From an uncultured Spiribacter sp. (GTDB taxonomy: Bacteria > Pseudomonadota > Gammaproteobacteria > Nitrococcales > Nitrococcaceae), in NCBI GenBank assembly GCA_913056145.1, contig CAJXMI010000012.1, positions 1-35,951 of the forward strand: a stretch of 35,951 nt of DNA, in the 5' to 3' direction. The notes under the pieces were generated by a model that saw nothing but the letters and a program-made list of their open reading frames with translations, did not search any database and was not told where the DNA came from. The position numbers and the translations under genes are program-made. Position 1 is the first letter of the stretch. Each line of letters opens with the position of its first letter. This document shows positions 5,805 through 31,407 of this stretch, piece after piece.

Positions 5805-7541
5805 ATGCAAGCGCCAACCCCTCACAACCCCGTCCCCGAGTCCCGCTGGCAGGCCGTCATTGCCCGGGAAAAGCTGCGCCTTTCCAACGGCCGTGCTCCG
5901 GTGCTCATGGCACTGCTGGGGGCGCTGAGTGGTCTGGTGGCGGGCGGGATCGTAATTGCCTTTCGGCTCCTCTACGAAACCGCCCAGACGGGTCTGCTCC
6001 CGGGGGGTGGCGAGGCGTTCGAAAGCCTTGCACCCTGGCAGCGACTGGCCCTGGCCGTTGCCGGGGCCACCCTGATCGGGCTGTACCTGCAGCGCATGGG
6101 CGCCGCCGCCCGGCACACCGGCATTGCCTATGTAATCGAGCGCACCGCCTACCACCAGGCGCTACTGCCGGTGCGCAATGCCGTACACCAGTTTGTGGCC
6201 GGTGCCCTTGCCATCATCAGCGGCCAGTCGGTGGGCCGTGAGGGGCCGAGTGTGCACCTCGGCGCGACGGCCGGGAGCCAACTGGGACAACGCCTTGGTC
6301 TGCCGCACAACAGCCTGCGGGTGCTGGTGGCCTGCGGCACCGCGGCCGCCATCGGCGCATCGTTCAACACGCCGCTCGCCGGCGTGGCGTTTGCGATGGA
6401 AGTGGTTGTCATGGAGTACACCATCGCCGGCTTTCTGCCGGTGATCATCGCGGCCGTGGTGGCCACCGCAACGGCGCATATGGTGGTGGGTGCCGATATC
6501 GCCTTTACCATTCCGGCCCTGAGCATTCAGGGGCTGCATGAACTGCCTCTTGTTCTGGTCCTGGGGCTGGTGGCCGGTGGCCTGGCCGCCGCGTTCATCC
6601 GCTCGCTCCGACTCGCCAATGGCCTCCTGCCGGGCTGGTCGATCACCGCGCGGGCGGCCCTCGGCGGGGCCGTGGTGGGTACCATTGCACTGGCGGTGCC
6701 GCAGGTCATGGGCATTGGCTACGACACCGTGGCGGCCGCGCTGGGCGGGCAGATCGAGCCCGGCATGCTCATCCTCATCATTGCCGCCAAACTGGTGGCG
6801 ACCGCGGCCGTGCTGGGGCTCGGCATACCGGGCGGCCTCATCGGCCCCACGCTGGTGATGGGAACGGCGGCAGGCGCGGCGCTCGGCCTGTTGTTTGCCG
6901 CCCTCGTGCCCGTGGCCATTGGCAGTCCGGCGCTCTACGCGCTGCTGGGCATGGGCGCCATGATGGGCGCGACGCTACGGGCGCCGCTTGCCGCGCTTAC
7001 GGCCATGCTGGAGCTCACGGCCAACCCCGGCATCATCCTGCCCGGCATGCTGGCCATCGCGGCCGGCATGCTGGCCGCACGGGAACTGTTTCGTACCGAC
7101 TCGATCTATCATTTGAGCCTGGGCGAGCGGGGCCTTGATCCGCGGCGCAACCCGCTACTGCAGGCGGCGAGCCGCCTTGGTATTCTCGATCTCGTTGACC
7201 GGCGCTTTGCCGTCCTGTCGGCCACCGCCGGGGCGGCCGAGGTAGCGGCCACACTGGACGCCGAGCCACACTGGCTGATCGTGGAGGGCGTCGCTGGCAA
7301 CGGGCCGCGCCTTGCCAGCGCCGAGGCGCTTGCCGGCCGGCCCGCCTCGGTCACCGCGGTTCGCGCGCTGTCACGGCCGCTCGCCTGCATTGACGAGCGG
7401 GCAAGCCTGCGCGAGGCGCTTGAGCGCATGCGCGACGGCGGCGATGATGCCCTTGCGGTGCAGGCCCGGACGCCATCGGGCCAGCCGCGATGGCGTGGCA
7501 TCCTGACCCGCACGGCCATCCAGCGGGCGTATCTGGCCTGA
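5805..7541 (+). CDS. ClC-family anion channel/transporter with C-terminal CBS-like region
   Basis: A 578-residue membrane protein of the ClC family. [11 protein letters not shown] (Glu146 as the external gating glutamate) and the [13 protein letters not shown] segment identify it. The C-terminal ~130 residues resemble a degenerate CBS pair. Two positions are unusual: the pore motif normally GSGIP reads HTGIA (residues 104-108), and the pair aligned with ClcA Glu202-Glu203 reads Glu199-Val200, so the internal proton-transfer glutamate is missing. That pattern resembles ClC channels rather than H+-coupled exchangers, and the substrate may not be chloride (inference). I chose ATG 5805 because an AGGGAG lies just ahead and a TATGAT -10-like box at 5761-5766 would leave the ATG at 5772 leaderless; the longer start remains possible. 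Confidence 0.9.
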
Positions 7542-7558
7542 ATATCCGCCCGGCGCGC

Positions 7559-7567
7559 TGCTACACT
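7559..7567 (+). promoter_or_regulatory. possible extended -10 promoter for the thioredoxin-like gene
   Basis: TG, one base, then TACACT is an extended -10 arrangement, 18 bases after the ClC stop codon and 44 before the next start codon. No good -35 box is seen, as is usual for extended -10 promoters. It would allow the thioredoxin-like gene and hemJ to be transcribed apart from the ClC gene. Confidence 0.3.
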
Positions 7568-7610
7568 ATCCGCAATCGATTATCGCGGTACTACAAGGAG
7601 GCCGTGACCA

Positions 7611-8123
7611 ATGCGCAAGGAATGGTTCATCGGACTCGCTGCGCTGTTGGTTCTGGGTGCCGTCAGCTTTGTCTGGCTGGCGCCGCGCGGCGGCGAGCCG
7701 GCACCCGAGGTGGCCTTTCGGATGCTGGACGGCCAGCCGGTCAGCCTGTCCGAGTATCGCGGCGAGCCGGTGCTCATCCAGTTCTGGGCCACCGACTGCC
7801 CCACCTGCATCAGCGAAATGCCCGAGCTGGTCAAACTCCACGAGACACTCGGCCCCGCCGGGCTCAACCTGGTGGGAGTGGCCATGGACTATGACCCCGA
7901 GGAGCGTGTCCGCAACCTGGTCACCCGGCGAAATCTGCCCTATCCCATCGCGCTTGATGACGGCGCCGCCGTGGCGGGCGCCTTTGACAACGTGCGCGTC
8001 ACGCCGACCTCCATCCTGATCGACGGCGAGGGCCGCATTGTCTGGCAGCGGATTGGCCTGCTCGACTTCGAGCGCCTGCACAACGAAATCCGCGCGCTGC
8101 TGCCCGGGGAGCAATCGGCATGA
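7611..8123 (+). CDS. membrane-anchored thioredoxin-like protein (TlpA/ResA type)
   Basis: A 170-residue protein with an N-terminal uncleaved-signal-like helix (about residues 6-24) and a periplasmic thioredoxin fold. The active site is Cys63-Pro-Thr-Cys66 in FWATDCPTCISEMPEL, and the cis-proline loop appears as RVTPTSIL. Relatives reduce apocytochrome c or copper-centre cysteines, or act as periplasmic thiol reductants; the exact partner cannot be read here. AGGAGG sits 9 bases before the ATG. Its stop overlaps the hemJ start by four bases (ATGA), so the two are translationally coupled. Confidence 0.92.
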   Translation: MRKEWFIGLAALLVLGAVSFVWLAPRGGEPAPEVAFRMLDGQPVSLSEYRGEPVLIQFWATDCPTCISEMPELVKLHETLGPAGLNLVGVAMDYDPEERVRNLVTRRNLPYPIALDDGAAVAGAFDNVRVTPTSILIDGEGRIVWQRIGLLDFERLHNEIRALLPGEQSA

Positions 8124-8548
8124 CCTATCTCTGGATCAAGTCGTTCCACATTATCAGCGTTGTGACCTGGTTTGCCGCGCTGTTCTACCTGCCGCGGCTG
8201 TTCGTCTATCACGCAATGGCCGAGGACGAGACCGGGCGCGAGCGCTTCAAGGTCATGGAGCGCAAGCTCTATCGCGGCATCATGAACCCCAGCGCCATTG
8301 TGGCGGTGGGCCTTGGCATTTTGCTCATTGTGTTGCAGCCGGTATGGCTCGAGCAGGGCTGGCTGCATGTCAAGATACTGCTGGTAGCCGCTCTGGTGGG
8401 CTATCACCTTTACTGCGGACGGCTATTGCGGGCCTTTACCGAGGACCGCAATCCACACGGCCACGTCTGGTACCGCTGGTTCAATGAGGCGCCCGTGGTG
8501 GTGCTGATTGCCGCCGTGGTGCTTGTTGAGTTAAAGCCCTGGGCCTGA
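8120..8548 (+). CDS. hemJ: protoporphyrinogen IX oxidase HemJ
   Basis: A 142-residue integral membrane protein of the HemJ (UPF0093) family, which oxidises protoporphyrinogen IX to protoporphyrin IX near the end of haem synthesis. The start MTYLWIKSFHIISVVTWFAALFYLPRLFVYH, with the conserved His10, is typical, and about four transmembrane helices are visible. HemJ replaces HemG or HemY in many proteobacteria. It is coupled to the thioredoxin-like gene and lies 86 bases before an Irr-like regulator. Confidence 0.94.
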   Translation: MTYLWIKSFHIISVVTWFAALFYLPRLFVYHAMAEDETGRERFKVMERKLYRGIMNPSAIVAVGLGILLIVLQPVWLEQGWLHVKILLVAALVGYHLYCGRLLRAFTEDRNPHGHVWYRWFNEAPVVVLIAAVVLVELKPWA

Positions 8549-8569
8549 GCGGCGCCGCGTTCCAATGAC

Positions 8570-8598
8570 TTACCCAGAGCGGTTTTTTTTGCTAGTGT
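8570..8598 (+). promoter_or_regulatory. possible promoter of the Irr-like regulator gene
   Basis: TTACCC (8570-8575) and TAGTGT (8593-8598) are 17 bp apart, and the spacer contains a run of eight T. This is the most A/T-rich patch in the 86-base gap after hemJ. The match to sigma-70 boxes is weak, so co-transcription with hemJ is equally possible. Confidence 0.3.
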
Positions 8599-8634
8599 AA
8601 AGAGGACGAATCGGGTCCTGTATAGGTCATCGCC

Positions 8635-9078
8635 ATGAATACGCAATCACAATCCGGCAGTCACGACGCCTACCTGCGCGACCTGCTACAGCAGGCCGGC
8701 CTGCGTGCCACGCGCCAGCGCCTGGGGCTTGCCGAGCTCATATTCGGCCAGGGCGAGCGGCATCTGACCGCCGAAGGCCTGTATGCCGAAGCCCTGCAGG
8801 CGGGGCTCCGGCTGTCGCAGACCACGGTCTACAACACGCTCCATCAATTCACCCGGGCCGGTCTGCTGCGCGAGATCCTGGCCGATCCGCGCCGCATCTA
8901 CTTCGACACCAATGTCGACCCGCACCATCATTTTCTCGATGAGGACACGGGTGACATGGAAGACATTCCCGCCGATGGCGTGGCCGTGAGTGCACTGCCA
9001 ACGCCGCCCCAGGGCAAGGCAATCGAGGGTGTGGACGTGATCGTAAGGGTGCGAAGCGCGGGCTCCACGCCTGCCTGA
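8635..9078 (+). CDS. Fur-family transcriptional regulator, Irr-like
   Basis: A 147-residue Fur-family protein. The winged-helix part spans about residues 12-85 (LRATRQRLGLAELIF, and SQTTVYNTLHQF at 61-72 as the recognition helix). The dimerisation part carries DPHHHFLDEDTGDMEDIP with a His97-His98-His99 triplet, the arrangement typical of Irr, where those histidines bind haem. Canonical Fur has HDHxxCxxCG here; this protein has no cysteine at all. Irr senses haem status and controls iron and haem genes in alphaproteobacteria, so its place next to hemJ makes sense. Assignment as Irr rather than another Fur paralogue is a motif-based inference. Confidence 0.85.
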   Translation: MNTQSQSGSHDAYLRDLLQQAGLRATRQRLGLAELIFGQGERHLTAEGLYAEALQAGLRLSQTTVYNTLHQFTRAGLLREILADPRRIYFDTNVDPHHHFLDEDTGDMEDIPADGVAVSALPTPPQGKAIEGVDVIVRVRSAGSTPA

Positions 9079-9094
9079 CGGGCGGCGCCGTCAG
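9075..9094. terminator. hairpin spanning two convergent stop codons (possible bidirectional terminator)
   Basis: CTGACGG (9075-9081) pairs with CCGTCAG (9088-9094) around a six-base GC-rich loop, and overlaps the stop codons of the Irr-like gene and of ptsP. No T-run follows on either side, so intrinsic termination is doubtful, although convergent genes often end in such stems. Confidence 0.3.
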
Positions 9095-11358
9095 TGCCGT
9101 CCGGCCCTGATCAGCCCGCCCAGGCCATGCCGTTCCAGGGCTACCGTGATCAGCGCCTTGACCGCCTCCGGCGTCTCGCAGGCAAGCGCCTCGTCCAGCA
9201 GCGATCGGCACTCCGCGGCGCTGAGGGTGCGCAGCACCCATTTCACCCGAAGCAGGCGGCCGCTGCTCATCGACAAGCCCTCCATGCCCATGGCCAGCAA
9301 TAGCGGCGCAACACCAGGCTCGCCTGCCATGCTGCCGCAGACCGACACCGGGCAGCCCACGCGCTGGCCGGCCTGGGCCACCTCGTTGACGGCCCGCAGC
9401 ACGGCCGGGTGCAGCTCGTCGTACAGCGACGCCACCCGACTGTTGTTGCGATCAACGGCCAGCAGATACTGCGCGAGATCGTTGCTGCCCACCGACAGAA
9501 AATCGAGTCGGCGGGCCAGGCTCTCGGCCTGATAGACGGCCGCCGGCACCTCCACCATCGCGCCTATGAGCGGCCGGGTTACTGCAACCCCCTCCTCGGC
9601 CAGCTCCTCGCATGCCCGCATCACCAGGGCCTTGGCCTGCTCGGCCTCCTCGAGCCGGGTCACCATCGGGAACATGAGCCGCAGATTGTCGAGCCCCACC
9701 GAGGCGCGCAACATGGCCCGCAACTGCGTGAGAAAGATCTCGGGATGATCCAGCGTCATCCGCACCCCGCGCCAGCCCAGGAAGGGGTTTTCATCGTGGG
9801 TCGGGAAATAGGGCAGCGGCTTGTCGCCACCCACATCGAGCGTCCGCAGAGTCACCGGCAGTGGCGCAAAGGCGGCCAGCACCTCGCGATACAGCACAGC
9901 CTGCTCCTCCTCGCCGGGGAAGCGGTCGCCCATCATGAACGGAAACTCGGTGCGGTGGAGCCCGACGCCGTCGCAACCGATCTCGAGCGCCGGATTGATT
10001 TCGGCCGCGAGGCCGGTGTTCACATACAGCTGAATCTCCGCGCCATCCGGCGTTCTGGCCGGCAGCCCCGTCAACTCGGAGAGCTCAGCCGTCAGCTCGG
10101 CCTCCTCGCGCTGCAGCCGGGCGTATTCGGCGCGCAACGGCTCAGCCGGATCCACCTCGACGCGGCCGCGGTAGCCATCCAGGATCAGGGCCCGGCCATG
10201 CAGGCCGTGGACGGGCAGTTCGCGCACGCCCATGACCGCCGGCACACCCAGCGCCCGGGCCAGAATGGCAATATGCGAGTTTGCCGAGCCGCCTGCGCTC
10301 ACCACGCCGGCCAGGCGCTCGGGCGGTATCTCTGCAAGCTGTGAGGCGCTTAGCTCCTCGCCGACCAGGATCGCCTGCTCGGGCAACCGTGCCTGATCGG
10401 ACTCGACTGACAGCAATCTGGCCAGCAGCCGCCGCCCCATGTCACGCACATCACTGGCACGCTCGCGCAGATAGGCATCCTCCATTGCCTCAAAGCGGCG
10501 GACCTGCTCGGCAATCGTGCGCCGCAGCGCGAACGGCGCCCAATGCCCATCCTCAATGCGCTCGCAGACCCCCCGGGTCAGACTGTCGCCATCGAGCATG
10601 CGCAGATAGACATCAAACAGCAGCTGCTCGCCATCGGGGAGCTGATCGCGCATACGCTCGGCGAGCAGCTCGAGATCGGCCCGCACTCCGTCCACCGCAG
10701 CGCGGAACTCGGCAATCTCGCGCGTCGGGCTCTGGGCGGGACGATCCGGCACGCCATCCAGATCGGCATGGTGCGAAACCACAAAGCCCTCGCCCATTGC
10801 TACGCCGCTCGAGCCACCGATCCCCGTCAGCCCCAGCGCCTGGCCCGGCAGATCACCCACCGCCGCCGCCAGATCGCCGCGCACCCGGGCATGGGCCATC
10901 ACCCCGGCCAGCTGCGCGGCCATGGTGACCAGAAACGCCACCTCGGCATCGTTGAAGCGGTCGCCCACCCGTCGCTGCACGACCAACACGCCAAGCCGCG
11001 ACTGATAATGGATGATCGGCACACCCAGAAACGAGTGGAAGCGCTCCTCGCCCGTCTCGGGGAAATAGCGAAAGCGCGGATGGCGATCCGCGTTCTCGAG
11101 GTTGATGGACTCCTCGCGCTGGGCAACCAGTCCGACCAGCCCCTCGTCCAGCGCCAGCCGCACCCGCCCCACGGCCTCGGAGTAAAGCCCCTGGGTGGCC
11201 ACCAGGCGCAGCTGCGCCGCCTCGGGCTCCAGCAGATACACCGAACACACATCGGCGCTGGTCGCCTCAGCCACCCGCTCCACAATCAGCTCAAGCGCTT
11301 CCTCGAAATCACTGGCCCCATTGACTGCCTGGACGATGCGATGGAGCGTCTCGAGCAC
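9091..11358 (-). CDS. ptsP: phosphoenolpyruvate-protein phosphotransferase PtsP (EI-Ntr)
   Basis: The first enzyme of the nitrogen-related phosphotransferase system: it takes phosphate from PEP and passes it to NPr. At 755 aa it matches E. coli PtsP (748). An N-terminal GAF sensor domain covers about residues 1-160, then the swivelling domain with the phosphorylated histidine (His362 in SANSHIAILARALGVP), then the PEP-binding barrel with LRTLDVGGDKPLPYF and the catalytic Cys674 in VSVCGSMAGEP. The gene follows rppH on the same strand with a 5-base gap, a common pairing. No HPr-like gene is in the window. Confidence 0.96.
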   Translation of the reverse strand: MLETLHRIVQAVNGASDFEEALELIVERVAEATSADVCSVYLLEPEAAQLRLVATQGLYSEAVGRVRLALDEGLVGLVAQREESINLENADRHPRFRYFPETGEERFHSFLGVPIIHYQSRLGVLVVQRRVGDRFNDAEVAFLVTMAAQLAGVMAHARVRGDLAAAVGDLPGQALGLTGIGGSSGVAMGEGFVVSHHADLDGVPDRPAQSPTREIAEFRAAVDGVRADLELLAERMRDQLPDGEQLLFDVYLRMLDGDSLTRGVCERIEDGHWAPFALRRTIAEQVRRFEAMEDAYLRERASDVRDMGRRLLARLLSVESDQARLPEQAILVGEELSASQLAEIPPERLAGVVSAGGSANSHIAILARALGVPAVMGVRELPVHGLHGRALILDGYRGRVEVDPAEPLRAEYARLQREEAELTAELSELTGLPARTPDGAEIQLYVNTGLAAEINPALEIGCDGVGLHRTEFPFMMGDRFPGEEEQAVLYREVLAAFAPLPVTLRTLDVGGDKPLPYFPTHDENPFLGWRGVRMTLDHPEIFLTQLRAMLRASVGLDNLRLMFPMVTRLEEAEQAKALVMRACEELAEEGVAVTRPLIGAMVEVPAAVYQAESLARRLDFLSVGSNDLAQYLLAVDRNNSRVASLYDELHPAVLRAVNEVAQAGQRVGCPVSVCGSMAGEPGVAPLLLAMGMEGLSMSSGRLLRVKWVLRTLSAAECRSLLDEALACETPEAVKALITVALERHGLGGLIRAGRH

Positions 11359-13245: not shown

Positions 13246-14637
13246 TCAGATCACGCGCGAGAATCGCCGCTGGTTGCGCGCATCCGCCAGGTAGGCATCG
13301 AAGGGCATCGCCACGTTGCGCAGGAAGAACTGCCCGCGGGGCGTCACCGCCAGGCCGTTGTGGCCGACATGGACCAGGCCGTCATCAACCAGCGGGGTCA
13401 GCTCGTCGAGCGCCTCGCGGAAATACTGCCGGAAGACCACGCCGTGGCGCTCTTCAACGGCATGAAAATCCACCCGCCCCTGACACATCACCGCCTGAAT
13501 CACGTCGCGCCGCAGGCGGTCATCGGCCGAGAGCGCGACGCCGCGCCAGATCGGCAGCCGCCCGGCGGCTACGGCCTCCGCATGGCCCTCGGGATCGCGC
13601 TTGTTCTGACTGTAGGCGTCACCGATCTGGCCGATTGACGAAGCGCCGAGTCCAATCAGATCGAGATCGGGCCGCGTGGCATAACCCTGGAAGTTGCGAT
13701 GCAGGGTGCCATCGTTGGCGGCCTGCGCCAGCTCATCGCCCGGCAGGGCAAAGTGATCCATGCCAATGTACTGATAACCGCCCTCGGCGAGCCGCTGCAT
13801 GGCCTCGATGAGCAGGGTGAGCTTGGTCTCGGCCGGCGGCAGACTGGCCTCGCTGATCTGGCGCTGGATACGAAACATCTGCGGCATGTGCGCGTAGTTG
13901 TAGAGCGCGATGCGATCGGGGCGGATATCGAGAACGGCATCGAGCGTGCGCGACAGGCGCTGCGGAGTCTGCAGAGGCAGTCCATACATCAAATCGAGAT
14001 TGACGGAATGAAAGCCCTGCGCCCGGGCCTCGGCTACCACATCGGCGGTGTCGCGCACCCCCTGAATCCGGTTGATGGCCTTCTGCACATCGGCATCGAA
14101 ATCCTGCACGCCCAGGCTGAGGCGATTGAAGCCCAGATCCGCCAGCCGGGCGATGCGGTCACGATCAACCGTCCGCGGATCAACCTCGATCGAGAACTCG
14201 CGGACATCCGGGGCGGCCAGCGGAAAGCGCTCGCGGATCGCCTCGATAAGCCGCGCCAGATCCTCATCGGTAAAGTAGGTGGGCGTGCCGCCGCCCAGAT
14301 GCAGTTGCTCGACGGGCCGGTCGTCATCAAAAAGGGCCGCCTGGAGATCGAGCTCCTGGATCAGGCGATCAAGGTAGCGCTCGGCGCGGCGGTAGTTGGC
14401 GGTGATGACCTTGTTGCAGGCGCAATAAAAGCACACGGTCCTGCAAAACGGCACGTGCACATACAGCGACAGTGGCCGCGGCATGGGGTCTTCGTTGCTC
14501 TCGATAACGCGCTGGCGATATCGCTGCGCGTCGAATACCTCGGTAAACTGCGCGGCGGTGGGGTAGGACGTATAGCGCGGCCCCGTGACGTCATAGCGTC
14601 GCAACAGATCGCGCTCCAACGGTAGCGTGTCGGCCAT
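13246..14637 (-). CDS. hemN: oxygen-independent coproporphyrinogen III dehydrogenase
   Basis: A radical-SAM enzyme that decarboxylates two propionate side chains of coproporphyrinogen III, for haem synthesis when oxygen is low. The cluster motif is CRTVCFYC (Cys65, Cys69, Cys72, with Cys74 following), preceded by RYTSYPTA and YVHVPFC. Length (463 aa) and the full HemN C-terminal domain (AVMCQGRVDFHAVE) separate it from the shorter HemW. GGAG stands about 10 bases before the ATG. I saw no FNR box in the short upstream region. It is convergent with the PCu(A)C gene. Confidence 0.97.
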   Translation of the reverse strand: MADTLPLERDLLRRYDVTGPRYTSYPTAAQFTEVFDAQRYRQRVIESNEDPMPRPLSLYVHVPFCRTVCFYCACNKVITANYRRAERYLDRLIQELDLQAALFDDDRPVEQLHLGGGTPTYFTDEDLARLIEAIRERFPLAAPDVREFSIEVDPRTVDRDRIARLADLGFNRLSLGVQDFDADVQKAINRIQGVRDTADVVAEARAQGFHSVNLDLMYGLPLQTPQRLSRTLDAVLDIRPDRIALYNYAHMPQMFRIQRQISEASLPPAETKLTLLIEAMQRLAEGGYQYIGMDHFALPGDELAQAANDGTLHRNFQGYATRPDLDLIGLGASSIGQIGDAYSQNKRDPEGHAEAVAAGRLPIWRGVALSADDRLRRDVIQAVMCQGRVDFHAVEERHGVVFRQYFREALDELTPLVDDGLVHVGHNGLAVTPRGQFFLRNVAMPFDAYLADARNQRRFSRVI

Positions 14638-24727: not shown

Positions 24728-26659
24728 TCACTCGAGCCGGGGCGCCTGCCGGGCCTGACGGGCCGCCTCCCTCAGCAGCGTCTCACGCTCGGCCAGGGTC
24801 AGCGGCTCGCGATCAAGCCTCGGCAGCAGCACCCCGCCCCGGATCTCCACACGCTCGATCTGCAGCAGCCATATCGGCCCCGCCGGGGTATCCGCACCCC
24901 GCCACGCACGCACCACGAGCCGTGAGCGCGTCGCCGGCTCGGGCCGAATCAGCACCTGCTCGGGCAGACGGCCGGCATGCCAGCGCGGCAGCACCGGCAA
25001 ATCCGTCAGCGAAGGCCGCGGGCTGAACCAGCGCAACAGCGTGCGCCACTGCCAGTTGCGACCGGGCTGCCAGCCCGCCTCGAACCCCGCCGGCCGGGTG
25101 TCATCGCCAAGCCATTGCGCCGCAAACGCATCGGCCGACCCGGCAATGCCCAGCCGCCGCTGCGGCAGCGTAACCGCGCCCGAGGACCAGGCCGCCAACG
25201 GGATCTGCGGTGGTTCGGCCCGGGTTGGATAGGCACGCAACGGATCGGGCCACTGCACAACCTCGGTGACGGTTGCGGCGGCCACAAGCACCAGCACCGA
25301 GGCCAGCACGGCGCGCGCCTCGGCGCCGGATCGCACCGGGATCCGCCCCACCGCCACGCCAGCCAGTCCGCCCAGCACAATACCGAGTGCCATCCCCGCA
25401 GCCACATCCAGCGGCCAATGCACGCCCAGGACAATCCGGCTGCCGGCAACCGCGAGCACAAGCAGCGCAGCGGCACCAAGCAGTGCACTGCGCAGGGCGC
25501 CCGCACGCAGCGGCACAAGCGCCATCCAGGCCGTAACCAGCGCGCCAATACCCGTGGCATGGGCACTGGGGAACGCGGCCGCAAAGTCAGGCGTTGCCGT
25601 GAGCCCACCCGGCCTTGGCGTGCCGAGCGCGCCCTTCAGCGCATAGGCCAGCAGCACCGGCACCAGCACGGCCGCGAGCGCGAGCGCCGCACGCTGGCCA
25701 TGCCCATGCCGCCAGAGCAGGCCGGCCAGCACCAGCGTGGCCAGAGCCACCGGCACAAACCCGCCCAGCTGGGTCACCCGCCAGGCCGCCAGCCGGACCA
25801 GCGCGGTGCGCTGGGCATCGGCAAGCGCGATCACACCCCGCTCCCAGTCATGCGGTGAGGGCATCACGGCGGCAAGCGCAACGGTTACCACCAACAGCAC
25901 CAGTGCCGTCCACCACAGCCATCCCTCGCGATGGCGCAGGGCGCGCAGTGGCCGATGCAGCGGGCGCAGCCCCAGCCAGCGCCAGTCAGCGGGTGGCCGC
26001 CGGCCCAGGCCGCGCGCCAGGCGATGGCCGGCCAGGCGCAGAGGACGATCGATGCGGGGCAGGAGCCAGCGCAAAAGGAAAAAGCCACCCAGCAGCAACA
26101 CCAACCAGGCAATGAGGCGACCCGCTACCTCCATGGCCAGCACCAGCGAGGCACCAAAGACGATCCCGGGCAGAAGATAGGCGGGCGCCCAGACCAGCGC
26201 CGAGCCGATATTGGCCAGCAAAAAGCGCCCCGGCGCCATGCCCAGCATGCCCACCACGGCGGGTATCACCGGCCGCACCGGGCCCAGGAAGCGGCCGATG
26301 ACGACGCTCTTGCCACCGTGGCGCGCAAACAGCTGCTCGGCGCGCTGAATGGCGCCGGGATAACGGCGGATAAGCGGAAACACTCGCAGGCGGTCGCGGA
26401 AGTGCCGGCCCAGCCAATAGCTCAGGCCATCCCCCAGAATGGCGCCAGCCGCGGCCCAGATGAGCACCGGCAGGATGGGCATGTTGCCGCCGCCCACAAC
26501 GGCACCCGCCATGAACAGCAGCACCGCACCCGGCACGGCCAGGCCCACCAACGCCAGCGATTCCAGAAAGGCGATCAGCCCGATGAACGCGCCCAGCCAG
26601 CCGGGATGGGCCGCCAACCAGTCAAGGACTGGCTCGAGGCCGCTCTCAATCCCGATCAC
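24728..26659 (-). CDS. DedA / PAP2 phosphatase / LssY-like three-domain membrane protein
   Basis: A 643-residue fusion. Residues 1-200 are a DedA (SNARE-associated/VTT) domain with [17 protein letters not shown]. Residues about 250-430 are a PAP2 lipid phosphatase with all three motifs: [17 protein letters not shown] and [12 protein letters not shown]. The last ~170 residues are soluble and resemble the LssY C-terminal domain. DedA proteins scramble polyprenyl or phospholipids and PAP2 enzymes remove their phosphates, so one protein may both flip and dephosphorylate a lipid (inference). Translation starts at ATG 26659, overlapping the hemL stop by four bases. Confidence 0.9.
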
Positions 26660-27939
26660 AGATGGCTGAACACCCGCTCGGCCGCATCCAGGGTGTGACT
26701 GAGCGCCGCCTCGTCATGCGCGGTGGAGACAAAGCCTGCCTCGAACGCCGAAGGGGCCAGATAGACGCCGGCCTCGAGCATGCCGTGGAAAAACCGCACA
26801 AACCGCTCGGCATCGCACCCGGCCACGTCCTCAAATCGCTCGACCGTATCGGCATGGGTAAAGAACAGGCCGAACATGGTCCCGGCCTGATGGGTCGCAA
26901 ACGGGACACCGGCGGCATCCGCCCGTTCGCGCAAGCCCGCCACCAGACGCCGCGTCCAGGCCTCGGCCCGCGCATGCACATCGGGCTGCGAGAGGTTGCG
27001 CAGGGTTGCCAGACCGCTTGCCATGGCCAGCGGGTTACCGGAGAGGGTGCCCGCCTGATACACGGGCCCCGAGGGCGCCAGGTGCTCCATGACCTCGGCC
27101 CGGCCGCCCAGTGCGCCCACCGGAAGGCCGCCACCAATCACCTTGCCAAGGCAGGTGAGATCGGGCTTTACGCCGTACAGCGCCTGGGCGCCCCCAAGGG
27201 CGGCCCGGAAGCCGCTCATGACCTCGTCAAACACCAGCAGGGCGCCGCTGTCATCGCATATCTGGCGCAGTCCCGCCAGAAAGTCAGGCCGCGCCGGCAC
27301 ACAGTTCATGTTGCCCGACACCGGTTCGACCAGCACCGCCGCGATGGTGTCGCCATAGTCTGCAAAGAGCGAGCGCACGGCCTCGAGGTCGTTGTAGGGG
27401 GCGGTCAGCGTCATCTCGGTCACTGCGGCGGGCACCCCCGGTGATCCGGGAATGCCGAGCGTGAGCACGCCCGAGCCCGCCTCGACCAGCAGCGCATCGA
27501 CATGCCCGTGATAGTTACCGCGGAATTTGAGGATGCGGTCGCGGCCGGTATAGCCCCGGGCCAGACGCACGGCACTGAGACAGGCCTCGGTGCCCGAGTT
27601 GACCATGCGAATCCGCTCGATTGACGGCATCAGCTCCCTGACCAGCACCGCCAGTTCGGTCTCGAGCACCGTGGGCGCGCCAAAGCTGGTGCCGTTGGCC
27701 GCGGTCTGGCTGATGGCCTCCACCACCTCCGGATGGGCATGCCCGATCGCAAGCGGCCCGTAGGAGAGGACATAGTCGACGTACTGCTTGCCGTCCTCGT
27801 CCTCGATCCAGGCGCCCGCGCCGCGGCGCATGAAAACCGGTGTACCACCGACAGAGCGAAAGGCACGCACGGCGGAATTGACGCCGCCCACCAAATGGCG
27901 CTGCGCCTCGGCAAAGAGTGTTTCGGATCGGTTGGCCAT
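26656..27939 (-). CDS. hemL: glutamate-1-semialdehyde 2,1-aminomutase
   Basis: HemL forms 5-aminolevulinate, the first committed haem precursor of the C5 pathway. The PLP lysine is Lys266 in [14 protein letters not shown], and FDEVMSGFR (237-245) binds the cofactor ring. The ATG at 27939 gives 427 aa, the usual length, with GGGAG about 13 bases upstream; an extension to 28068 would overlap thiE and is not conserved. Order rubredoxin-thiE-hemL is as in Pseudomonas. Confidence 0.97.
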
Positions 27940-27973
27940 GGCTGCCGTCGGACTCCCGTTACAGAATGAATGA

Positions 27974-28618
27974 TCAGCGCGGGGCGCCAAAACCCTGCGC
28001 CACAAGCGCGCGCGCCGCCTGCTCGACATCGGCCGCGGCAAATACCGCCTGGATGACCGCGACCGCATCGGCGCCGGCGCGGGTCACGGCTGCCACGTTA
28101 TCCGGCTCGATACCGCCAATCGCGACCAGCGGGCCGGCAAAAAACGCCCGCGCCTTTGCGAACAGCGCGAGCGGCGCCCGCACGGCCTGCGGCTTGGTCG
28201 GCGAGGTAAAGACGCTGCCGAACGCCAGATAGTCGGCCCCGGCTTCCGCGGCAGTCCGGGCGCGCTCCAGGCTGTCATAGCAGGATACGCCCACAATGGC
28301 ATCCGCTCCCAGTGCCGAGCGGGCCGCCGGCACCGCCGCATCGTCACGGCCGACATGCACACCGTCCGCCCCCACCTCCGCCGCCAGCGCGACGTCGTCA
28401 TTAACAATAAAGCAGGCCCCGGCGTCACGGCAGCAGGCGGCCACCGCACGCGCCTCGGCCCGGCGGCGTTCGCCATCGGCGGTTTTATCGCGGTACTGCA
28501 CCACGCGGGCGCCCCCACGCAGGGCGGCCGCCACCGCATCAGCCAGGGCCTCGGGCCCGTCCGCCCGGTCGGGGGTGATGACGTAGAGGCCACGAATGCG
28601 CGCGGCGGCGGCAGGCAC
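27974..28618 (-). CDS. thiE: thiamine-phosphate synthase
   Basis: ThiE couples the thiazole and pyrimidine halves of vitamin B1. The TIM barrel shows [43 protein letters not shown] and [11 protein letters not shown], all hallmark segments. In many ThiE proteins the third reads LGQED; here it is VGRDD. 214 aa. The start is GTG at 28618, 3 bases after the rubredoxin stop, so it likely depends on coupling. Confidence 0.95.
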
Positions 28619-31390: not shown

Positions 31391-31407
31391 GAGACTTGAC
31401 GTGTCTC
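31391..31407. repeat. GAGAC-N7-GTCTC inverted repeat in the ccoN promoter
   Basis: Five-base perfect arms separated by seven bases, between the FNR site and the TAATAC box. Its position, just upstream of the -10 element, would suit a second regulator. It may be chance. Confidence 0.35.

Follow-up and report, generated by a model that had tools for sequence, protein, structure and literature searches.

Irr, a haem-based sensor of iron, is commonly taught as the alphaproteobacterial substitute for Fur. The full consensus of its operator, the iron control element (ICE), is of the TTAGAA-N3-TTCTAA type, with the half site TTAGAAT. A review describes Irr, in the part of the text available, as confined to alphaproteobacteria "with few exceptions" (PMC7762939). 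For the Irr proteins of Rhizobium leguminosarum and Rhodobacter sphaeroides, which have no haem regulatory motif, the available parts of two papers describe haem binding at an HxH motif and the use of ICE boxes, note that haem is still bound by Irr proteins lacking the Cys-Pro motif, R. sphaeroides being an example, and state that haem reduces DNA binding by R. leguminosarum Irr (PMC7762939, PMC3413700). In Sinorhizobium meliloti the element mutated in the ICE was TTCTAA (PMC7540006, in part). Here we describe an irr gene that lies beside hemJ in a stretch of 35,951 nucleotides from an uncultured Spiribacter sp. (contig CAJXMI010000012.1, positions 1 to 35,951; hereafter the window). We observe that its product belongs to the Irr family, that its adjacency to hemJ is conserved, and that a palindrome close to the rhizobial ICE recurs at orthologous promoters. 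On balance we favour the view that irr encodes a genome-wide regulator of iron economy of the Irr family with an altered operator, rather than a local switch for hemJ. Genomes (G), loci (L), contigs (C), genera (g) and families (f) are given by our own handles where they have to be told apart.

The gene is placed as follows.

8635..9078, + strand: irr, Fur-family iron response regulator of the IrrA type, 147 amino acids (NF045678, PF01475)

Its product, the window protein, passes the IrrA model NF045678 (178.7 bits, cut-off 150, E 5.1e-53), scores slightly below the cut-off of the Irr sister model NF045677 (166.8 bits against 170) and has the FUR domain PF01475 (67.5 bits). The best model other than Irr, PerRA (NF047462), is not passed at 60.3 bits against a cut-off of 200, so that IrrA exceeds it by 118 bits. 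PerR-type models give 60.3, 47.8 (PerRB), 36.5 and 32.3 bits with cut-offs of 180-250, none of them passed, and the Fur model PRK09462 gives 35.6 bits against 146, with two further Fur models lower. Judged by these curated models the protein is an Irr, not a Fur or a PerR. The closest solved structure, 5nl9, which we take to be Leptospira PerRA, is a Fur-family regulator with an HHHH stretch of its own.

A tree was built from 79 proteins, comprising 27 alphaproteobacterial, 24 same-order, 26 other same-class and two outgroup rows, on few columns and with the bootstrap unsettled. The alphaproteobacterial sample consisted of 77 of the best 80 loci out of 584 (L065-L141, assigned by title, L070 and L071 being titled only Proteobacteria), and 27 of the 77 entered the tree. 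The 27 alphaproteobacterial and 24 same-order Irr rows formed one group (100/98, branch 0.76) apart from the 26 same-class rows, and the same split appeared when the outgroups and the long row L027 were left out (Shimodaira-Hasegawa-like approximate likelihood ratio test, SH-aLRT, 99). Within it the alphaproteobacterial rows were a group of their own (97/94; 87 without the outgroups and L027), from which the direction and date of transfer are not readable. Both outgroup rows were very long-branched, and the genome's own Fur was placed inside the Irr group with a branch length of 10; we take this placement as a long-branch artefact. With the sole own-Fur row in that position, the tree by itself is no argument against Fur, and that argument is carried by the family models. 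The Irr-like identity proposed in an initial annotation of this DNA is thus upheld by the IrrA model and by the grouping with alphaproteobacterial Irr; the phylogeny that it called for joins the protein to Irr and does not by itself separate it from Fur.

The same annotation had read the histidine triplet and the lack of cysteines as signs of Irr. Both are present, HHH at residues 97-99 within DPHHHFLDEDTGDMEDIP and not one cysteine in the protein, and HxH is kept in 13/13 Spiribacter Irr. These features are nevertheless weaker than claimed and not diagnostic, because HxH is shared with the own Fur and the Zur-like protein (both histidines are invariant across a 13-protein alignment that includes these two) and cysteine-free copies are frequent (24/77 alphaproteobacterial and 19/28 same-class loci). 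The Cys-Pro haem regulatory motif of the Bradyrhizobium type was sought in the window protein and is absent; the dipeptide occurs in 36/77 alphaproteobacterial loci and in 0/13 Spiribacter. Haem sensing and DNA binding by Spiribacter Irr are predicted here from the sequence.

Within the order the IrrA cut-off was exceeded in 29/54 genomes, namely 13/14 Spiribacter, G202, G405, G419, all 12 members of family f185 and a single f184 genome. The 14th Spiribacter genome, below the cut-off, is 74% complete, and five g274 genomes gave Fur-level matches or none with this model. A class-wide sample had an IrrA match at E < 1e-24 in 151/369 genomes (own included), followed by a gap to about 1e-19, and only 2/369 exceeded the cut-off. 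From 28 same-class loci fetched (e.g. L006-L033), 26 scanned proteins matched both Irr models plus PerRA and PerRB, as in L020, with 136.8 bits for IrrA (under the cut-off) and 103.8 for PerRA. We rejected these weaker proteins as Irr, since their scores fall between Irr and PerRA; they are relatives only and apparently an unnamed Fur subfamily. The class Gammaproteobacteria of GTDB includes the betaproteobacteria. The 151/369 could, though this is less likely than not, make Irr-like sensing a broad gamma- and betaproteobacterial trait. The nearest named relatives are two Ectothiorhodospiraceae metagenome-assembled genomes (88% identity) and Spiribacter salilacus (82%), followed by alphaproteobacteria (51-61%). 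These nearest relatives and the NCBI taxonomy, which puts Spiribacter in Gammaproteobacteria, Ectothiorhodospiraceae, bear out the gammaproteobacterial host of the initial annotation. Its suggestion that Irr is little described in this lineage agrees with a search of open-licence papers, which found no report of it there, and with the review cited above.

Searches for a candidate Irr box used the pattern read backwards as control. Several ICE-like sites immediately before iron genes share the variant TTGGAATNATTCCAA, a 15-bp 7-1-7 palindrome close to the rhizobial ICE. In Spiribacter this palindrome is found repeatedly, 9-37 bp upstream of sdhC, dps and a metal-binding-protein gene, and two relatives have it ahead of bfr. 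With one mismatch the pattern TTRGAAYNRTTCYAA, which was shaped on hits within the same genus, gave 31 sites in 13/14 Spiribacter genomes against 20 for the control. Seven of the 31 precede the metal-binding-protein gene, five sdhC (all 27 bases before the ATG), four dps, two each a ZIP-like gene and a second ATP-binding cassette (ABC) binding protein, one a HiPIP gene and one a rhodopsin-like gene; two more lie in the fur/bamE gap. Pfam and NCBIfam back SdhC, the ZnuA/TroA-type metal-binding protein, the Dps-like ferritin, HiPIP and the ZIP protein; the second ABC binding protein has no specific Pfam or NCBIfam match, and bamE and rhodopsin are our labels. The rhodopsin-like gene (in G407, L213) has its ICE-like site 16 bp upstream. 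The own genome carries TTRGAAYNRTTCYAA with one mismatch each at sdhC, the ZIP-like gene and the ABC binding protein, two at the metal-binding protein and three at dps.

Counted by orthologous promoter at up to 2 mismatches from TTRGAAYNRTTCYAA, the box is found at sdhC in 9/14 Spiribacter genomes, where it lies 27-29 bp upstream of the start, at the metal-binding protein in 9/12 Spiribacter copies (a count that omits the second G417 copy, L284, with no box, and weak homologues elsewhere) and at dps in 9/12. After subtraction of the promoters already found by the one-mismatch search, 4/9, 2/5 and 5/8 remain, respectively. Outside the genus the dps box was found in 3/5 (both G405 copies and one in G202; not G419 or G399). 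An exact search of the 54 genomes with TTGNAAYNRTTNCAA placed sites at bfr and at a SUF regulator in G381, at a SUF regulator in G382, at bfr in G405, 3 kb away from irr, and at HiPIP in G407. G202 has the ICE-like TTAGAATCATTCTAT in the stretch between irr and a rubrerythrin gene (L005:1928-1942); a rubrerythrin-like gene is among the Bradyrhizobium Irr targets named in the available part of one source (PMC3413700).

The recognition helix of the protein differs along with the box. Its start is xxAT in 76/77 alphaproteobacterial loci (the remaining one has SLST), in 12/12 f185 loci, in G202 and in G419, and xxTT in 13/13 Spiribacter (SQTT), in G405 (SQTT) and in both f184 loci (AYTT/AQTT); the window protein has SQTT, not SLAT. 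Where the box is known, the xxAT helix pairs with TTA boxes (TTCTAA of S. meliloti; G202) and the xxTT helix with TTG boxes (Spiribacter, G405, and genus g282). The f184 helices come from G384 and G380, and the bfr and SUF sites from G381 and G382, which belong to the genus of G384. Helix type and box type may therefore co-vary, on the few lineages at hand. We tentatively propose, as a possibility well short of an even chance, that in this order an Irr of the alphaproteobacterial kind runs an iron-economy regulon alongside Fur, and that a change of helix from SLAT to SQTT (Spiribacter, G405) or to AYTT/AQTT (f184) turned a TTAGAAT box into TTGGAAT/TTGNAAT. Two lineages appear to have made this change, the SLAT relative G202 keeping the canonical ICE.

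Several results weigh against the reading that we favour. An ICE-like palindrome of the TTAGAA-N3-TTCTAA type is itself not enriched in Spiribacter (43 sites with 2 mismatches, 69 in the control), and 7/31 of the TTRGAAYNRTTCYAA sites are other or unclear, at genes without an iron link. Outside the genus the sdhC box is found in 0/11 copies, whether the genome carries Irr or not, so that its lack in Irr-less genomes is uninformative, and the metal-binding-protein box in 0/2. G419 has Irr and no box at sdhC or dps; G405 has none at sdhC or the metal protein. Across the order exact TTGNAAYNRTTNCAA matches number 34 against 64 in the control, occur in 20/54 genomes that include the Irr-less G401 and G402, appear in only 1/12 Irr-positive f185 genomes and are in several cases coding or unclear; this search fails to separate Irr-positive from Irr-less genomes. 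In G401 and G402 (L336, L338) the palindrome stands 135-137 bp before an H-NOX-like gene (our label; no NCBIfam match for L336), and in three genomes of one f184 genus (L329, L331, L332) TTGNAA-type palindromes stand 155-190 bp before pqqB-like genes (also our label). At box position 4, 5 of the 12 dps sites are changed on both arms and pair and 6 are unpaired; paired changes, mixed on this recount, were dropped as support. The palindrome evidence is thus recurrence at orthologous promoters, and genome-wide counts do not convincingly exceed controls. The reversed control of TTGNAAYNRTTNCAA was seen to match 51/54 genomes, usually once, as if at one conserved place.

In another reading TTGGAATNATTCCAA would be recognized not by Irr but by Fur, or by a regulator responding to manganese or zinc, or would be partly chance, an alternative that we hold to be rather unlikely while giving it real weight. 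Besides Irr the genome encodes a Fur (C16) and a seven-cysteine member (C20), the 7-1-7 layout is common to Fur-family proteins, and two TTRGAAYNRTTCYAA sites lie in the fur/bamE gap; the high control counts, the matches in the two Irr-less genomes and the lack of sdhC and dps boxes in Irr-bearing G419 point the same way. The half site, however, is close to the rhizobial TTCTAA and unlike GATAAT, the gammaproteobacterial Fur box, the sites recur at orthologous promoters at a fixed distance, and helix and box change together. A related doubt concerns the signal. A protein related to Irr but sensing manganese or peroxide, as PerR or Mur do, with histidines that bind metal and not haem, would fit the HxH columns shared with Fur and the Zur-like protein, the HHHH stretch of 5nl9, the intermediate scores of same-class relatives such as L020, and the presence of a metal-binding-protein gene among those with a box. 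We regard this as improbable, given the preference of the window protein for IrrA over PerRA and the report, in the part of the source at hand, that R. sphaeroides Irr without Cys-Pro binds haem (PMC3413700).

The initial annotation had held plausible, from the neighbourhood of irr, a local haem-feedback circuit, in which Irr would directly control the adjacent hemJ, and further hemN, hemL and ccoN, according to haem. The features concerned are these.

7611..8123, + strand: gene for a TlpA/ResA-like protein with a thioredoxin fold (PF08534/PF00578, open reading frame coordinates)
8120..8548, + strand: hemJ, protoporphyrinogen IX oxidase, 142 amino acids (TIGR00701, PF03653)
8590..8601, + strand: extended -10-like element TGCTAGTGTAAA before irr (alignment of 19 loci, 15 genomes)
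8604..8618, no strand: imperfect inverted repeat GGACGAATCGGGTCC, consensus GKAC-N7-GTCC (alignment and locus comparison)
13249-14637, start at 14637: hemN
26659-28068, start at or slightly below 28068: hemL
start at 31401: ccoN

Both open reading frames of the pair, hemJ and the cysteine-free Fur-family gene with HHH, are present in the sequence as the annotation had it, on the + strand and 86 bases apart, and HemJ meets the curated model TIGR00701 (154.2 bits against 138.05) as well as PF03653. By tblastn (E 1e-4) hemJ adjoins irr in 18/138 irr loci, three of them second copies by their identical scores, that is in 15 genomes of three genera (13 Spiribacter, G405 and G419) and in 15/30 same-order irr loci. 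This conservation, the presence of hemJ, hemN and hemL in one 36-kb window, and the repression of hemB by Bradyrhizobium Irr, stated in the available part of one source (PMC11442138), all speak for local feedback, as does a weak site of score 9.5 in the hemJ-irr gap of G419 (L035:1452) found with a matrix built from 32 sites of the same genus. That score is below the training minimum of 11.0, and the site is the sole one near that range in the gap among the 12 other hemJ-irr loci, on the two best sites per locus.

We nevertheless judge local feedback very unlikely. With up to 3 mismatches allowed, the tlpA-hemJ-irr region has no ICE-like box in the window or in any of 17 related loci; the ICE-like matches at 609 and 23358 of the window, and 2.7 kb beyond irr in L063, fall outside this block. 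The matrix, used only to show absence here, scores at most 1.6 at 7500-9100. The top site of the whole window (10.3 at 1775) is barely inside an endopeptidase-like gene, and the eight highest-scoring sites of the window include none before hemN, hemL or ccoN, where the annotation had suggested a test for binding. The conserved promoter-like element also separates hemJ from irr, and hemJ stands beside irr in 0/77 alphaproteobacterial and 0/28 other same-class loci, within flanks of 1.5-3 kb, some ended by contig ends. Nothing in this analysis supports the control of hemJ by Irr.

The gap before irr has its own conserved features. The extended -10-like element is similar in most Spiribacter, and the inverted repeat, which ends 16 bases 5' of the irr ATG, is kept with 0-1 mismatch in 12/13 Spiribacter loci and G405; the 13th Spiribacter locus, L054, carries GTACTAGATAAGTCC at this position in the alignment, and the repeat is absent in G419 and G202. 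Because the gap holds both a promoter-like element and a conserved inverted repeat, irr probably has its own transcription start, and the repeat is a candidate operator of irr. As the Irr box, the repeat in the form GKACTNANTNAGTCC was rejected, since it is not enriched genome-wide. Exact matches occur in only 3/14 genomes, and away from irr these are L142, in a leuD-like open reading frame (our label), and L143, with no convincing gene; at 2 mismatches, or in a looser form at 1, the reversed control was higher in all 14 genomes (forward counts).

For the genome-wide iron-economy reading, we infer that Irr reads the palindrome, in which direction it regulates, and that haem is the signal. When haem, and hence iron, is scarce, apo-Irr dimers would sit on TTGGAATNATTCCAA near the transcription start, where they would repress genes of iron storage and use (dps, bfr, sdhC, HiPIP) and adjust metal uptake (the TroA/ZnuA-type binding protein, ZIP) and, in some species, fur. 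As haem rises it would bind at or near HxH and Irr would leave the DNA. Reversible release of the R. leguminosarum kind, and not haem-driven degradation as in Bradyrhizobium, is to be expected because the protein has no cysteine and hence no Cys-Pro motif. The irr gene itself would probably be transcribed from a promoter of its own within the hemJ-irr gap, which also holds the separate conserved repeat.

Compared with R. leguminosarum and R. sphaeroides Irr, the window protein shares the family model, HxH and the lack of Cys-Pro, and the predicted Spiribacter targets likewise concern iron storage and iron use. It differs in that the host is gammaproteobacterial and keeps Fur, irr stands beside hemJ, the helix is SQTT rather than xxAT, and the candidate box has TTGGAAT in place of TTAGAAT. 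The Irr of Bradyrhizobium japonicum belongs to the same family, with its histidine cluster at 117-119 according to the available part of one source (PMC11442138), whereas the window protein is without Cys-Pro and the window gives no sign of haem-gene control. With PerRA (NF047462, 5nl9) the protein has in common the Fur family and a histidine-rich metal region, though not, as noted above, a passing score. With its own Fur (C16) it shares the Fur-family domain and the HxH columns, at 27% identity in the alignment and with no cysteine against four. In a lineage with Fur as well as Irr, and with candidate boxes before genes of storage and respiration, one can ask how the two regulators divide their work, and the pairing of helix and box would be a small specificity change within one family that is open to direct test. 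Neither the hemJ-irr adjacency nor the histidine triplet, on the other hand, is a reliable pointer to target genes or signal.

The host genome is 1.87 Mb, 87.7% complete, and has three FUR-domain genes, irr, fur (C16) and a Zur-like gene on contig C20 whose product has seven cysteines; Fur and Zur are our names. The 3' end of the TlpA/ResA-like gene overlaps the start of hemJ by 4 bases by open reading frame coordinates, and we expect the two to be co-transcribed. The three haem biosynthesis genes hemJ, hemN and hemL lie in the window within 20 kb of one another. A PCuAC-family periplasmic copper chaperone (PF04314, 12743-13231) adjoins hemN, with ccoN in the same window, and a tie of this chaperone to cbb3 oxidase assembly is our guess only.

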